64,000 nt of DNA from Archangium primigenium. Lineage in GTDB: Bacteria > Myxococcota > Myxococcia > Myxococcales > Myxococcaceae. The notes beneath the pieces were generated by a model. It did no database searches, was not told the DNA's origin, and worked only from the letters and a program-made list of their open reading frames with translations. Of the stretch, positions 19,172-43,478 are shown in pieces (position 1 is the stretch's first letter; every line of letters begins with the position of its first letter). The stretch is taken from the NCBI RefSeq assembly GCF_016904885.1, contig NZ_JADWYI010000001.1, positions 1,302,001 through 1,366,000 on the forward strand, given 5' to 3'. Position numbers and translations under genes: made by a program.

Positions 19172-21028
19172 GTGTCCCCTCCGACCCCTCGCACGCCGCC
19201 CCCCTCGCTCAAGGCCCGGTTGAAGAACGCGGGCAGCCTCTTCCGGCAACTGCCGGGCACCTTCCGTCTGTTCTGGGAGGCCAGTCCCCGGCTCGCGGTG
19301 ACGCTCGCGGTGCTCACGCTGGTGGCCGCGGTGTTCCCGGCGGCCATGGCCTGGGTGGGCAAGCTCATCGTGGACGGCGTCGTGGCCACGGCCAGCGGGG
19401 GCGGCGAGGCGGGGGTCTCGCGGGTGCTGCACCTGGTGGTGCTGGAGTTCGCGCTGATGGTGGGCTCCATCACCGTGGACCGCTCGCTGTCGCTCGTGCG
19501 CGAGCTGGGCCGGGCCAACCTGGGCAACCTGCTCAACGAGCGCATCCTGCACAAGGCGCTGGCGCTGGAGCTGCGGCACTTCGAGGACTCGGACACCTAC
19601 GACAAGATGCAGAACGCCCGGCGCGAGGCGAACAGCCGCCCGCTGGCGCTGGTGATGGATGCCTTCTCCATCGTGCGCAACCTCGTGACGCTGTCCACGT
19701 ACGCGGTGCTGCTCGTGCACCTGTCGCCCTGGAGCGTGGTGGTGCTGGTGGCCGCGAGCGTGCCCGCCTTCATCGCCGAGGCGCGCCTGGCCGAGGAGGG
19801 CTTCCGGCTCTACTCCTGGCGCGCGCCCGAGGGCCGCAAGCTCAACTACCTGGAGTGGATCCTCACGCGCGACAGCCACGTGAAGGAGGTGAAGGTCTTC
19901 GACCTGGGCGGGCTGGTGCTCGGGCGCTACCGCACGCTCTTCCAGAAGTTCTTCCAGGAGGACCGGGCCCTGGCGATGCGGCGCATGGGGTGGGGCCTGG
20001 GCCTGGGGCTCGTCTCGCTCGCGGCGTTCTACGGCTGCTATGCCTTCGTGGCGGGGCGCGCGGCGCGCGGCGCCATCACGGTGGGCGACATGGTGCTCTA
20101 CCTGGGCGTGTTCCGGCAGGGCCAGGCGGCCTTCCAGGGCATCCTCTCCAGCGTGGGCAGCATGTACGAGGGCGCGCTCTTCATGAGCAACCTCTTCGCC
20201 TACTTCGACATCCCCACGGGCCAGGAGGCCTCGCGCGCGCGTCCGGCGCTCACGGTGCCCCGGGGCCGGCACAACGCCATCGAGCTGCGCGACGTGTCCT
20301 TCCGCTACCCGGGCAAGGACGCGTGGGCGCTGCGCCACCTGAACCTGCGGCTGGAGCCCGGGGAGAAGCTGGCGCTGGTGGGCGAGAACGGCGCGGGCAA
20401 GAGCACGCTCGTGAAGCTGCTCTTGCGGCTGTACGAGCCCACCGAGGGCGACATCTTCTACGGCGGCGTGAACCTCAAGGACATGGAGCCGGCGGACCTG
20501 CGCTCGCGCTTTGGCGCCGTGTTCCAGGACTTCGTGCGCTACCAGTTCAACGTGGCGGAGAACATCGGCCTGGGGCACGTGGGGGCCCTGGAGGACCGGC
20601 CGCGCATCGTGCGCGCGGCGGAGCAGGGCGGCGCGAGCCACGTCATCGAGGCCCTGCCCCAGCGCTACGACACCATGCTGGGCGGCTGGTTCGAGAAGGG
20701 CCTGGAGCTGAGCGGAGGCCAGTGGCAGAAGCTGGGCGTGGCCCGGGCCTTCATGCGCGAGGACGCGGAGGTGCTCATCCTGGACGAGCCCACGGCGAGC
20801 ATCGACGCCGAGTCCGAGCACGCCCTCTTCGAGCGCTTCCAGGAGCTGGCGGCCGATCGCATCGCGCTCGTCATCTCCCACCGCTTCTCCACGGTGCGCA
20901 TGGCGGACCGCATCGCCGTGCTGCACGACGGGCAGGTGGAGGAGCTGGGCAGCCACGCGGAGCTCATGGCGCGTGGCGGCCGCTACGCGCACCTGTTCAA
21001 CCTCCAGGCGCGTGGCTACCGGGACTGA
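19172..21028 (+). CDS. ABC exporter, fused permease and ATPase
   Basis: A 618-residue half-transporter. The membrane domain spans about residues 30-330 with six hydrophobic segments. The ATPase domain has Walker A VGENGAGKST, Q-loop AVFQDFVRYQFNVAENIGLG, signature LSGGQWQKLGVARAF, Walker B VLILDEPTASID and the H-loop histidine in VISHRF. The QDF...ENIGLG form resembles peptide exporters of the NisT/SpaT/McjD type, but there is no C39 peptidase domain. The GTG start at 19172 has no strong Shine-Dalgarno; a TAGACA hexamer lies 6 bp upstream. Substrate is not fixed by context. It could serve the RiPP-like precursors 15 kb away, but nothing in the sequence links them. Confidence 0.88.
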   Translation: MSPPTPRTPPPSLKARLKNAGSLFRQLPGTFRLFWEASPRLAVTLAVLTLVAAVFPAAMAWVGKLIVDGVVATASGGGEAGVSRVLHLVVLEFALMVGSITVDRSLSLVRELGRANLGNLLNERILHKALALELRHFEDSDTYDKMQNARREANSRPLALVMDAFSIVRNLVTLSTYAVLLVHLSPWSVVVLVAASVPAFIAEARLAEEGFRLYSWRAPEGRKLNYLEWILTRDSHVKEVKVFDLGGLVLGRYRTLFQKFFQEDRALAMRRMGWGLGLGLVSLAAFYGCYAFVAGRAARGAITVGDMVLYLGVFRQGQAAFQGILSSVGSMYEGALFMSNLFAYFDIPTGQEASRARPALTVPRGRHNAIELRDVSFRYPGKDAWALRHLNLRLEPGEKLALVGENGAGKSTLVKLLLRLYEPTEGDIFYGGVNLKDMEPADLRSRFGAVFQDFVRYQFNVAENIGLGHVGALEDRPRIVRAAEQGGASHVIEALPQRYDTMLGGWFEKGLELSGGQWQKLGVARAFMREDAEVLILDEPTASIDAESEHALFERFQELAADRIALVISHRFSTVRMADRIAVLHDGQVEELGSHAELMARGGRYAHLFNLQARGYRD

Positions 21029-34396: not shown

Positions 34397-35388
34397 GAAT
34401 GGGGCTCCAGTCCGGCGGCCTGCGAGAGGGCGCGCACGATGGCGCGCCGGGCCAGTTCGATCTTGAAGGTGTTGTCCCCGTGGCCCTGGGCGCCCTGGAG
34501 GAGGGCGTCGGCCACGGTCTGGAAGTGCTCGCGCGTGGCGGGCTTGCCCACGAGCAGGGCCTCCGCCTCGGGCGAGCGCCAGGGCTTGTGGGCCACGCCG
34601 CCCAGCGCGATGCGGGCCTGGCGGATGGTGTCGCCGTCCAACTGGAGCGCGGCGGCGACGGACACGAGCGCGAAGGCATACGACTGCCGGTCCCGCAGCT
34701 TGAGGTAGGCGTGGTGTTGGGAGAAGTCCTCCGGGGGCAGCTCCACGGCGGTGATGAGCTCGCCGGGCTGGAGGTTCGTGTCGCGCTCGGGCGTGTCTCC
34801 GGGCAGCCGGTGGAAGTCGGCGATGGGCAGGGTGCGCTGGCCCTGGGGCCCCGTCATGTGGATGCGGGCGTCGAGCGCCGCCAGGGCCACGCACATGTCC
34901 GAGGGGTGGGTGGCGATGCAGTGCTCGCTCGTGCCGAGGATGGCGTGGATGCGGTTGTTGCCCGTGAGCGCGCCACAGCCGGCGCCAGGCTCGCGTTTGT
35001 TGCAGGGCGTGCCCGTGTCGTAGAAGTAATAGCAGCGGGTGCGCTGCAAGAGATTGCCGCCGGTGGTGGCCATGTTGCGCAGCTGCGCCGAGGCGCCCGC
35101 GAGAATGGCCTTGGACAGCAGCGGATAGCGGCGCTCCACCTGGGCGTGGTACGCGGTGTCGGCGTTGGTGACGAGCGCGCCGATGCTCAGGCCGCCCTCG
35201 GGACGCTCCTCGATCTGGTTGAGCGGCAGCCGCGTCACGTCGATGAGCCGCTCGGGCCGCGCGACGTTCTCCTTGATGAGGTCCACCAGGTTGGTCCCGC
35301 CCGCGATGAACTGGGCGGCGGGCGACTTCGCCGCGGCTTCCACGGCGCTCGGGATGTCCTGGGCCTTCTCGTAGGTGAAGCGGTTCAT
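34393..35388 (-). CDS. FAD-binding subunit with extra Fe-S cysteines (PaoB/YagS-like)
   Basis: A 331-residue flavin subunit. FAD-binding motifs are [19 protein letters not shown] and [13 protein letters not shown]. Directly after comes [17 protein letters not shown] then GCGAL, the cysteine-rich loop that binds an extra [4Fe-4S] cluster in PaoB/YagS and 4-hydroxybenzoyl-CoA reductase beta. It passes electrons from the Mo centre to an acceptor. Coupled by 4-bp overlaps to both neighbours. ATG 35388 chosen at MNRFTYEKA, the family start. Confidence 0.93.
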
Positions 35389-35924
35389 GGCGTCGAGCCC
35401 CCGGAGGATTGCCGCCGGGCCTGCTCGATGGCGGCGAGGATGTTGGGATAGGCACCGCAACGGCAGAGGTTGCCGCTCATCAACTCCCGCACGTCGTCCA
35501 GGCTCTTCGCCTTGCCCTCGGCGAGCAGGCCCACCGCGGAGCAGATCTGTCCCGGTGTGCAATAGCCACACTGGAAGGCGTCTTGATCCACGAAGGCCTG
35601 CTGCATCGGATGCAGGGTCTCTCCCGAGGCGAGCCCCTCGATGGTCGTGACCTGGGCGCCGTCCTTCATGACGGCGAGGGTCAGACAGGAATTGATGCGC
35701 TTGCCGTCGACGAGCACCGTGCAGGCGCCACACTGACCGTGGTCGCACCCCTTCTTGGTTCCCGTCAGGTCCAGCGATTCCCGAAGCAGGTCGAGCAGGG
35801 TCGTCCAGGGCGCGACCCGCAACTCCTTGCGCGCGCCATTGACCTCGAGGCGAATCGGATGTGTCGAGGACTCGCTCGCGGAAGGCTCCGGTCGTGCGCC
35901 TGCATCACGTGAGGTTTTACTCAT
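35385..35924 (-). CDS. [2Fe-2S] subunit of the aldehyde oxidoreductase (PaoA-like)
   Basis: A 179-residue iron-sulfur subunit with both clusters. The plant-type site is [16 protein letters not shown] plus a downstream cysteine in INSCLT, and the helical site is [11 protein letters not shown] with [12 protein letters not shown]. About 20 disordered residues precede the ferredoxin domain. E. coli PaoA has a Tat signal; no twin-arginine signal is seen here, so the complex is probably cytoplasmic (inference). AGGAG lies 10 bp before ATG 35924; a GTG at 35933 is too close to it. First gene of the operon; the promoter should lie in 35925-36274. Confidence 0.92.
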
Positions 35925-36007
35925 GGTGGACACTCTCCTGGAGAGGGCCGCTCAATGTGGCATGGGCGCTCCGGAGTGCCGGGAGGAACCCCGCGGACCG
36001 AGCGCGT

Positions 36008-36025: not shown

Positions 36026-36216
36026 AGGATGACGGCGGCGCGCGGGTGTTTGTGGAATAGAAGAAAGCCATGGCCCGTGGAGCCCGCGTGCCAACGCGAC
36101 GCGGCATCCAGCGCGAGGGAGGCTTGCGCTCGTTCCCCTCACCCCGCGGGGACGCGGGCAAAGCGCCAGAACCACACGCGGACTCGCCCTGGGAGGTGAT
36201 GGAGGGTCGCCGAGCA

Positions 36217-36238
36217 GTGACTGTACTGTTCGAGTCAC
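36217..36238 (+). promoter_or_regulatory. inverted repeat overlapping a possible -10 of the precursor genes
   Basis: GTGACT and AGTCAC arms flank a 10-bp spacer that contains TACTGT. It lies 37 bp before the first precursor start, where an operator or promoter is expected. Confidence 0.3.
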
Positions 36239-36274
36239 CGTCGGAGTCGACGGCACGACAGGGGGCTTGCCACC

Positions 36275-36475
36275 GTGAAGACCGACAAGAAGCAGGGAAA
36301 GCTGTCACTCCACAAGGAGACGCTGCGTCACCTGTCCGAGGAGAGCCTGGAGCGCGTGGTGGGAGGCAACGGGGACTCCGGCGGCATCATCTGCCTGTAC
36401 TCGCTCATCCTGTGCGGAGACTCGGTGATCTGCTCCATCCTCGCGGGCTCGTGCAACAACGACAACGGAGGCTAG
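36275..36475 (+). CDS. RiPP-like precursor peptide 1
   Basis: A 66-residue peptide with leader and core organisation. The leader has KLSLHKETLRHLSEESLE and ends in a double glycine (VVGG), the pattern of class I lanthipeptide-type leaders in myxobacteria and Bacteroidetes. The core after GG is about 36 residues with four cysteines and several serines: GIICLYSLILCGDSVICS, then LAGSCNN. GTG start at 36275 with an AGGGGG stretch about 10 bp upstream; no in-frame ATG is available. A paralogue follows 143 bp later. No LanB/C, LanM, radical-SAM, YcaO or C39 peptidase gene is adjacent, so modification is unproven. Confidence 0.75.
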   Translation: MKTDKKQGKLSLHKETLRHLSEESLERVVGGNGDSGGIICLYSLILCGDSVICSILAGSCNNDNGG

Positions 36476-36578
36476 AGGACATCCTAGTGGTTCAAGGGGG
36501 CGGGGGAGTCGCGACACACAGGAACACATCCCCCCGAGGTAATACTGGTCGCGCAGGGGCGGACCCAATGTCTGTTTC

Positions 36579-36596
36579 GCCGTCAATCCTGACGGC
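36579..36596 (+). promoter_or_regulatory. hairpin between the two precursor genes
   Basis: GCCGTCA and TGACGGC form a 7-bp stem with a 4-base loop, 23 bp before the second precursor start. It may attenuate or terminate transcription, or protect the message. Confidence 0.35.
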
Positions 36597-36618
36597 TCCC
36601 CGAACAGGACGGTCCCCC

Positions 36619-36831
36619 ATGAGCGACGCGAAGAATGGCAAGAAGCTGAGCCTTCACAAGGAAACCCTCGTCAACCTCTCGGATGAGAGCCTGAGCCAGG
36701 CCGCGGGTGGCAATGGCGACACGGCGGGCATCATCTGCGTGTTCTCCGTGCTCATCATCTGCGGCGACTCGGTGGTCTGCTCCGTGCTCGCGGGTGCGTG
36801 CGACAACGAGAACGGCAGCGGCGGCGACTGA
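36619..36831 (+). CDS. RiPP-like precursor peptide 2
   Basis: A 70-residue paralogue of the preceding gene. The leader KLSLHKETLVNLSDESLSQ ends in AAGG, and the core has IICGDSVVCSVLAGAC with four cysteines at matching positions. The leader KETL block and the CGDSV(I/V)CS(I/V)LAG(S/A)C core are the most conserved parts. ATG 36619 with AGGAC about 9 bp upstream. A 12-bp perfect hairpin follows at 36855-36892. The gene probably arose by tandem duplication. Confidence 0.75.
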   Translation: MSDAKNGKKLSLHKETLVNLSDESLSQAAGGNGDTAGIICVFSVLIICGDSVVCSVLAGACDNENGSGGD

Positions 36832-36854
36832 GCCACGCGGCGTGGTGTCTGGCG

Positions 36855-36892
36855 CCTTCCTCCCGATGCGAGCACCGCGTTCGGGAGGAAGG
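36855..36892 (+). terminator. strong terminator hairpin after the precursor pair
   Basis: Perfect 12-bp stem CCTTCCTCCCGA/TCGGGAGGAAGG with a 14-base loop, 23 bp after the second precursor stop. It separates the pair from the SDR gene. Confidence 0.65.
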
Positions 36893-36942
36893 TGGCACAC
36901 GCGGAGTGGACGCCCTCCCCCGGCTGGGCGGAAGATCGCGCC

Positions 36943-37764
36943 ATGAGCGGATTGAAGGACCTTCGTGGCAAGGTGGCGGTGGTGACCGGCGGCACCTCGG
37001 GAATCGGCAAGGGCCTGGCGAAGCAGTTGATCGCCGAGGGCATGCAGGTGGTCATCGCCTCCAAGCGGGACGACGCGCTCCAGGCCACCGCCCGGGAGAT
37101 TGGCGCGGTGGGCATCCAGACGGACGTGAGTGACCTGGAGAGCGTGCGGGCGCTCGCGCGGGCCGTGTGCGAGCGCTTCGGCACGGTGCACGTCGTCTGC
37201 AACAACGCGGGGGTGGGCCCGTTCGGGCGCATCGCCGACCTGAGCGTCAATGATTGGAAGTGGGTGCTGGACGTGAACCTGTGGGGCTGCATCCACGGGG
37301 TGAACGTGTTCCTGCCCATTTTGAAGGCGAACCCCGACGGCGGGCACTTCGTGAACACCTCGTCGCTCGGCGGCTTCACCACCCACCCGAACCTCGGCGC
37401 CTACGCCGTGAGCAAGTTCGGGATGATGGCGCTCTCGGAGACCCTCGCACAGGAACTGGCCGAGGAGGGCTCCAAGGTCGGGGTGACGCTGCTCTGCCCT
37501 GGGCCCGTGTACAGCGACATCAAGTCCAGCTCACGCAACCGGCCCGAGTCGCTCCAGGGCGGGGGATTGGTCGACGTGGATCTCCAGTCCATGGACTTCG
37601 CGGCCCATGCGCGGTGGCTGGAGCCGGACGAGGTGGGCCGGATGACGGTCGAGGCCATCAAGAAGGGCGAGCTCTACGTCATCACCCATCCCGAGGCCTT
37701 CGCCGGGGTCGACCAGCGCCATCAGGCGATTGCCCGCGCCTTCCAGCGCGAGCCCGCGCCCTGA
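36943..37764 (+). CDS. short-chain dehydrogenase/reductase
   Basis: A 273-residue classical SDR. Cofactor motif VVTGGTSGIGKGLA, NNAG (as CNNAGVGPFG) and the catalytic Ser-Tyr-Lys in NTSSLGG and YAVSK are present. The residue pattern after beta-2 (IASKRDD) suggests NADP(H) preference. Substrate unknown. It starts 112 bp after the precursor pair, beyond the terminator, so involvement in precursor maturation is not supported by context. Convergent with the next gene, 10 bp apart. Confidence 0.9.
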   Translation: MSGLKDLRGKVAVVTGGTSGIGKGLAKQLIAEGMQVVIASKRDDALQATAREIGAVGIQTDVSDLESVRALARAVCERFGTVHVVCNNAGVGPFGRIADLSVNDWKWVLDVNLWGCIHGVNVFLPILKANPDGGHFVNTSSLGGFTTHPNLGAYAVSKFGMMALSETLAQELAEEGSKVGVTLLCPGPVYSDIKSSSRNRPESLQGGGLVDVDLQSMDFAAHARWLEPDEVGRMTVEAIKKGELYVITHPEAFAGVDQRHQAIARAFQREPAP

Positions 37765-42428: not shown

Positions 42429-43478
42429 ATGCAACAGCCCGCCATGAAGAGCTCCGCTGATGTCTCGTTCCTCCCAGAGCCGCCCCTCGTGAGGGGACCG
42501 CGCCTGTCGATGCTGCGCCTGCCCACGTCCTGGTCCATGGAGCCGAGCCTGTATGCCCGGGCGATGGATCGCCATACACGCGGCCAGGTGCTCGCGTTCA
42601 ATGTCTTGCCAGACGATCCGGCGCGGGTGATGCGTTTTGACGCGGGCCAGTTTGGACTGCTCACGGCGCATGTCTATCCCAAGGGACGGTGGGAGCGTCT
42701 GGCGGTGTGCAATGACTGGCACGCGTGGCTGTTCTTGTTCGACGACGAGGCGGACGAGCAGGCCGACGTGGGCCAGCGGCCCGAGTACCTGGCGCACTAC
42801 GTGGAGGCCTGTCTGCGGGTGCTCCGCGGAGGGCGGCCGGGCGCGCGCGCCACGCCCCTGGAGCGCTTCACGTACCAGCTGCGCCAGCGCATGAGCAGCC
42901 TGGCGAGCGAGATGTGGATGGAGCGCTTCATCCACGACGTGGAGGACTACCTGCTGCGGGGCACGCTGCCGGCCGCGCGCCACTGGACCGACGGCACGGT
43001 GCCCGCGCTGGAGCCCTACATCGAGCAGCGCGCCCTGGACTCGGGCGTGTACACGGCGCTGGATCTGGTGGAGTTCGCCGAGCCGGGGCAGGAGCTGCCC
43101 GAGGAGCTGTTCCGCCTGCCGCTCGTGCAGCGCATGCGCCAGTTGTGCACGCGTGTGGTGGCGCTGACCAATGACCTCTTCTCCTTCGAGAAGGAGGTGC
43201 TCTGGCACCGCAATCCCAACAACTTCATCCACGTGCTGGGGGTCAACCAGGGCCTGGGACTGGAGGAGGCCATCTTCGCGGGCATCGAGCTCATCAACTC
43301 GGACACGGACGCGTTCATCGCCTGCGAGGAGGCGCTGCTGGCCTCGCGGCTGAGCGACCCGCGGGTGCTCGCGTACGTGGAGGGGATGAAGGCGTGGATC
43401 CGCGGCAACGTGCACTGGTCCCTGGTGACGGGGCGCTACAGCTCGCCCACGTCGCCCTTTCCCGAGCTGCGCCGCTAG
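42429..43478 (+). CDS. class I terpene synthase
   Basis: A 349-residue bacterial terpene cyclase. The Asp-rich Mg2+ motif is FLFDDEADE (residues 105-110), the NSE triad is NDLFSFEKE (Asn 248, Ser 252, Glu 256) and the C-terminal Arg-Tyr pair is in TGRYSSP. Length and motif spacing fit bacterial sesquiterpene or diterpene cyclases acting on farnesyl or geranylgeranyl diphosphate; the product cannot be told. GAGGTG lies 5 bp before ATG 42429. No P450, methyltransferase or prenyltransferase gene is adjacent. Its TAG stop overlaps that of the convergent thioredoxin gene. Confidence 0.92.
   Translation: MQQPAMKSSADVSFLPEPPLVRGPRLSMLRLPTSWSMEPSLYARAMDRHTRGQVLAFNVLPDDPARVMRFDAGQFGLLTAHVYPKGRWERLAVCNDWHAWLFLFDDEADEQADVGQRPEYLAHYVEACLRVLRGGRPGARATPLERFTYQLRQRMSSLASEMWMERFIHDVEDYLLRGTLPAARHWTDGTVPALEPYIEQRALDSGVYTALDLVEFAEPGQELPEELFRLPLVQRMRQLCTRVVALTNDLFSFEKEVLWHRNPNNFIHVLGVNQGLGLEEAIFAGIELINSDTDAFIACEEALLASRLSDPRVLAYVEGMKAWIRGNVHWSLVTGRYSSPTSPFPELRR

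Follow-up and report, generated by a model that had tools for sequence, protein, structure and literature searches.

The analysed window is a stretch of 64,000 nucleotides from Archangium primigenium (C1:1302001-1366000 of a 9.49-Mb genome in 3 contigs), and the locus under study, at about C1:1.338 Mb, consists of two small precursor peptide genes in tandem on the plus strand. Gene 1 (36275..36475) starts with GTG and encodes 66 amino acids, comprising a leader that runs to a GG site and the core NGDSGGIICLYSLILCGDSVICSILAGSCNNDNGG, and gene 2 (36619..36831) starts with ATG and encodes 70 amino acids with the core NGDTAGIICVFSVLIICGDSVVCSVLAGACDNENGSGGD. The pair is flanked by a [2Fe-2S] oxidoreductase subunit gene (35385-35933, minus strand) and by a short-chain dehydrogenase gene (36892-37764), of which no orthologue was found in other members of the genus. 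The original prediction described paralogous peptides sharing a KLSLHKETL block, a GG site and a CGDSV motif, and the alignment of the two window peptides displayed all three. The four cysteines also correspond, as it had stated, but their positions do not match exactly, since the gap between Cys1 and Cys2 is one residue shorter in the gene 1 peptide. The acidic tail (mostly NN/DN-E/D-NG), which had been pointed out as unusual, is kept in this genome's copies of the family but is absent from the homologues of G001, a genome of the same genus, and G105, from a different genus. As predicted, no modification enzyme, C39 peptidase or dedicated exporter is encoded in the window: all LanB, LanC-like and C39 matches of the genome lie outside it, and an ABC transporter without a C39 domain is found at 19172-21028, 15 kb from the pair. 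A terpene synthase family 2 gene is also present in the window, at 42429-43478 (plus strand).

Both genes are preceded by a conserved 5' element on the plus strand. The element of gene 1 (36209..36275) contains the hairpin CCGTC-N6-GACGG at 36238-36253 and scored 19.0 bits (E 0.009) with model R2, which was built without the window copies, and that of gene 2 (36551..36617) scored 35.2 bits (E 7e-7). The hairpin at 36579-36596 had been noticed before and proved to be real (7/7 pairs); it lies upstream of gene 2, and the gene 1 hairpin is its equivalent. A hairpin of this kind, about 20-40 nt before the start codon, precedes all seven copies of the family in this genome, the orthologue in G001 and the homologue in G105. 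Searched against the whole genome, a covariance model of the 67-nt 5' region, trained on the same seven copies, matched only these (43-56 bits; next match, 21). The element was not found at 13 other loci, including those of other LanB-linked precursors, and is therefore a feature of this subfamily, not a signal shared by LanB precursors at large. In its 5-bp stem 95.6% of the cells are paired, with one compensated pair, a level not above that of shuffles; because this covariation is weak, an RNA hairpin and a DNA operator are indistinguishable and equally possible. The hairpin predicted downstream of gene 2 (36855-36892) was likewise recovered, as part of a strong inverted repeat (36847..36900, plus strand) whose arms, 36847-36866 and 36881-36900, are 85% complementary; it has no T-run and is possibly a terminator. 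Scans for sigma-70 promoters and T-run terminators gave no match, and Rfam microRNA matches over the downstream hairpin were below threshold and were rejected as chance.

A profile search of leader and core against RiPP precursor families had been proposed as a check. Both peptides matched the NCBIfam class I lanthipeptide leader model lant_leader_L1a (NF038153; curated cutoff, 22 bits), with 31.1 bits for the gene 1 peptide and 33.4 bits for the gene 2 peptide, and the leaders of 7/7 genomic copies exceeded the cutoff, so that the pair carries a recognised leader type of class I LanA precursors. Class I leaders with an LxLxKx5L motif and a GG site, associated with C39 peptidases, were described in Bacteroidetes by Walker et al. 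(PMC7268733), and the window leaders fit this motif. Other searches were negative: the window peptides gave no meaningful match in Pfam, no match in PHROGs or in the plasmid search, none in a collection of genome contigs scanned both with a single sequence and with the family alignment, and no SapB-family match in NCBIfam at E <= 10.

Described as orphans, the two precursors are so within the window, but not in the genome, where seven copies were found at four loci: the window pair, a tandem triplet (C1:2889177, 2889612 and 2890132), a lone copy at C1:1731967 and a copy beside modification enzymes at C1:8154293. The other copies are 63-76% identical to the second window peptide, and the positions invariant in all seven include KL, L, K and T of the leader, GGNGD, the four cysteines, CGDS and the Cys-Ser that follows it. 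Comparing the window copies with the others gave a core dN/dS of 0.10-0.32 (NG86; approximate, as the sequences are short). This purifying pattern indicates that the window reading frames are genes, as predicted, rather than chance open reading frames, and the seven copies are maintained. In sequence, the two window genes rank with the copies that have diverged most, and the constraint on them could be weaker. Near the lone copy, 0.9 kb downstream, a RiPP maturation B12/radical-SAM C-methyltransferase is encoded (TIGR03975, 609 bits; L016:11034-12914, plus strand, C1:1.733 Mb). It possibly provides an extra modification of that copy, or its position is a coincidence, and different copies might thus receive different modifications; as the enzyme of the whole family it was set aside, since its homologue in G002 is only 41% identical, with an NHLP-like neighbour, which leaves a link unproven.

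The full-genome survey for lanthionine synthetases revealed the enzymes beside the copy at C1:8154293. This copy is followed, on the opposite strand, by a C39-peptidase ABC exporter (L015:10363-12612), and the set includes a LanC (L015:13480-14724; PF05147, E 5e-36) and a full-length LanB of 1096 amino acids (L015:14740-18030, C1:8.159 Mb; PF04738, E 2e-164, plus Lant_dehydr_C). The LanB possesses both glutamylation and elimination domains and aligns with MibB and NisB, while the LanC keeps the HG, AWCYG and CHG motifs as in NisC and MadC, with Cys-Cys-His zinc ligands. The LanB and LanC are linked to the family through a paralogue and not through the window pair, which lies at 1.338 Mb, against 8.16 Mb for the enzymes; adjacency to the precursor is usual for class I LanA but does not define it (compare the prochlorosins). 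At the syntenic site in G001 a single precursor accompanies a C39 exporter, a LanC and a LanB that is 76% identical, and the synteny extends to an ELWxxDGT-repeat gene and further flanking genes. Ancestrally, the enzyme cluster therefore probably contained a single precursor, and the six remote copies are probably additions in this lineage. Among 96 Myxococcaceae genomes the leader was matched 12 times outside this genome, and in 10 of these cases a LanB N-terminal domain lies within 5.2 kb, the exceptions being two low-scoring matches (G140 and G150); in A. primigenium only 1/7 copies is within about 5 kb of a LanB. It had been proposed that homologues with the KETL block joined to other cores would point to a structural protein family. 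Such peptides do occur in relatives, where the same leader is joined to quite different cores, as expected of a leader read by LanB; nearly all of them adjoin a LanB, which argues for the behaviour of a RiPP leader rather than of a structural protein.

The arrangement of the cores bears on how the cysteines are used. A Ser/Thr of its own precedes each Cys in every core of this genome and in the diverged homologues of G001 and G105, where the spacings differ (Ser/Thr-to-Cys distances of 4, 3/4, 2 and 5 in this genome, 4, 4, 5 and 2 in G001, and 4, 2, 2 and 5 in G105); in G105 a LanC and a LanB are located downstream of the precursor. By permutation, the chance of this alternation ranges from 1/70 to about 1/14 per core, for cores that are homologous and hence not independent. 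An own Ser/Thr for each Cys favours lanthionine rings, because rings require it and disulfides do not, and the cores are thus predicted to become four-ring (methyl)lanthionine peptides, with a likewise predicted ring topology. Calculated from the residue after GG, the monoisotopic mass of the gene 1 core is 3416.54 when linear, 3344.49 after loss of four H2O and 3326.48 after loss of five, and that of the gene 2 core 3743.68, 3671.64 and 3653.63, respectively; two disulfides would instead give 3412.50 and 3739.65. Unmodified class II bacteriocins also use a GG leader and a C39 exporter, and one could propose that the window peptides are of this kind, with the GG leader serving only for C39 export and the four cysteines forming two disulfides. 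The even number of cysteines and the lack of an enzyme in the window agree with it, but we consider it very unlikely, since the leader is of the class I lanthipeptide type, one copy and the orthologues adjoin LanB/LanC, and every Cys retains its upstream Ser/Thr even where spacing and sequence diverge.

If the peptides are lanthipeptides, another synthetase of the same genome might produce them. The LanC-domain matches comprised one stand-alone LanC, two RamC-type LanKC and one LanC-like protein, none being typed as LanM. Counted against the 8.159-Mb set as sole partner are a second full-length LanB (L039:9566-12778, plus strand, C1:3.756 Mb), 47% identical to the first, and the two class III LanKC (RamC_N, kinase and LanC domains; L060:7279-10519 at 6.05 Mb and L061:7359-10043 at 8.55 Mb); moreover, the gene 1 core has SL(I/L)LCGDS in common with class III SapB. 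Nevertheless, the LanKC at 6.05 Mb is accompanied by a precursor of its own (L060:7279-7455), whose leader is different, neither a LanC nor a recognised precursor was found beside the second LanB, and this LanB is closest (55%) to one of G136 whose neighbouring leader peptide has no Cys. Given that the family and its orthologues track LanB/LanC of the 8.16-Mb type, maturation of the window peptides by any of these synthetases is unlikely, and the best partner for them is still the LanB at 8.16 Mb. There is also only a slight chance that the enzyme-linked copy alone gives a product and that the peptides of the scattered ones, kept as expressed relics or for dosage, stay unmatured: the divergence of the window pair and the absence of an enzyme within megabases would fit, but the low core dN/dS and the retention of the 5' element speak against it.

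We therefore consider it quite probable that the window pair represents two of seven near-identical precursors of one class I lanthipeptide, matured in trans by the LanB/LanC/C39 set at about 8.16 Mb. The original prediction had left the choice between trans-acting enzymes and unmodified or disulfide-bonded peptides; the former are now strongly favoured by the leader class, the 73% identical paralogue beside LanB/LanC/C39 and the alternation of Ser/Thr and Cys. That the 8.159-Mb LanB and LanC act on the window pair we infer from family membership, enzyme domains and zinc ligands, synteny, co-occurrence, selection and the shared 5' element, all read from the sequences, and all seven copies are probably modified by this one distant enzyme set. 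Each copy would be transcribed with its own 5' hairpin element; its L1a leader (LxLxKx5L...GG) would be recognised by the LanB, which would dehydrate the Ser/Thr of the core; the neighbouring LanC would join each Cys to the preceding Ser/Thr in a thioether ring, giving a four-ring peptide, and the neighbouring C39-ABC transporter would cleave after GG and export it. The extra copies would then raise or diversify expression, by dosage or regulation, rather than chemistry.

The peptides are best filed as a new class I lanthipeptide family with an unusual precursor set, dispersed and amplified. With the Bacteroidetes-type class I lanthipeptides (NF038153; PMC7268733) they share the leader motif, the GG site and the combination of LanB, separate LanC and C39 exporter, but they are myxobacterial, their core is unlike that of any named family found, and 6/7 precursors are far from the enzymes. 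In this last respect they resemble the prochlorosins (ProcA/ProcM), for which a single class II synthetase acts in trans on many precursors encoded at scattered genomic sites (PMC7268733, PMC11251773). Prochlorosins, however, have Nif11-type leaders, a ProcM-like LanM whose zinc site is Cys3, and cores that vary greatly, whereas here the leader is L1a, the proposed enzymes are LanB/LanC with Cys-Cys-His ligands and the cores are nearly identical. No report of class I precursors scattered in a genome and modified in trans was found in the open-access literature. Mining tools search for lanthipeptide precursors a few genes away from LanC (seven in PMC7268733), and remote class I copies such as these are therefore missed. 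If confirmed, the system would parallel prochlorosin-style trans-modification in class I (LanB/LanC, tRNA-dependent), with amplified near-identical cores in place of diversified ones, and it raises the question of why one lanthipeptide is kept in seven dispersed copies that share a 5' element. The myxobacterial lanthipeptides already known (boletupeptin, LanII-2B of Archangium violaceum and the peptide of Wang et al. 2023) have the host group in common with the window pair; in the texts consulted, boletupeptin is cited under class III and LanII-2B is of class II.

Regarding function, antibacterial activity in predation is the default guess. The SLxLCGDS stretch of the gene 1 core and the hydrophobic ring segments recall SapB/AmfS of class III. 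Only 0.0004 of shuffles reached the gene 1 core score, in a comparison chosen after seeing the sequence, and the likeness is weaker where tested in other copies and in the G001 orthologue (0.005-0.03 of shuffles) and absent in G105. Leader and synthetase class differ from those of SapB/AmfS: the leader is L1a instead of class III, and one LanKC of the genome has its own precursor. A SapB-like surface role is thus a weak lead, and it is highly doubtful that the family is a multi-copy class I lanthipeptide convergent with Streptomyces SapB, serving as a hydrophobic surfactant or morphogen with rings and an acidic tail, of which seven dispersed genes with a shared 5' element and one LanB/LanC factory would yield large amounts; if true, a role in, e.g., fruiting-body or surface formation of the myxobacterium would follow.

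Further observations concern other lanthipeptide-type loci. The second LanB adjoins rod-shape/cell-wall-type genes, as judged by eye, and the L060 LanKC cluster also encodes a C39 exporter and a short precursor with a GG leader and the core AEVLALQGLALEREKDACVSFCSCTSSVSSRSN. Near the LanC-like gene (L042:9357-12370, C1:6.18 Mb) there is a precursor-like peptide with the leader end LDLLDGVVGG and the core NKKGRCQCLFTRGGGCNTTGHDNDND, with a C39 match downstream (6.1835 Mb), and a lone leader peptide related to it occurs at L017:10110-10290 (C1:1.064 Mb; core DCWVTCNNTCVFS...). In relatives, L1a leaders are fused to Thr-rich cores without Cys in G136 (L096 and L085) and G140 (L084) (TTPFTIIPVTIG..., ITPTIPIATIIV...); the G136 peptide adjoins a LanB, and these products may be linear dehydrated peptides. 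Finally, the LanB/LanC/C39 clusters L019, L020 and L021 (of G002, G003 and G001, respectively) contain precursors with extremely charged cores (e.g., NRRDDDDRDRRDSRRHHRGCRRYSRRHDRGRCRD) and two Cys, an unusual composition for a lanthipeptide core.
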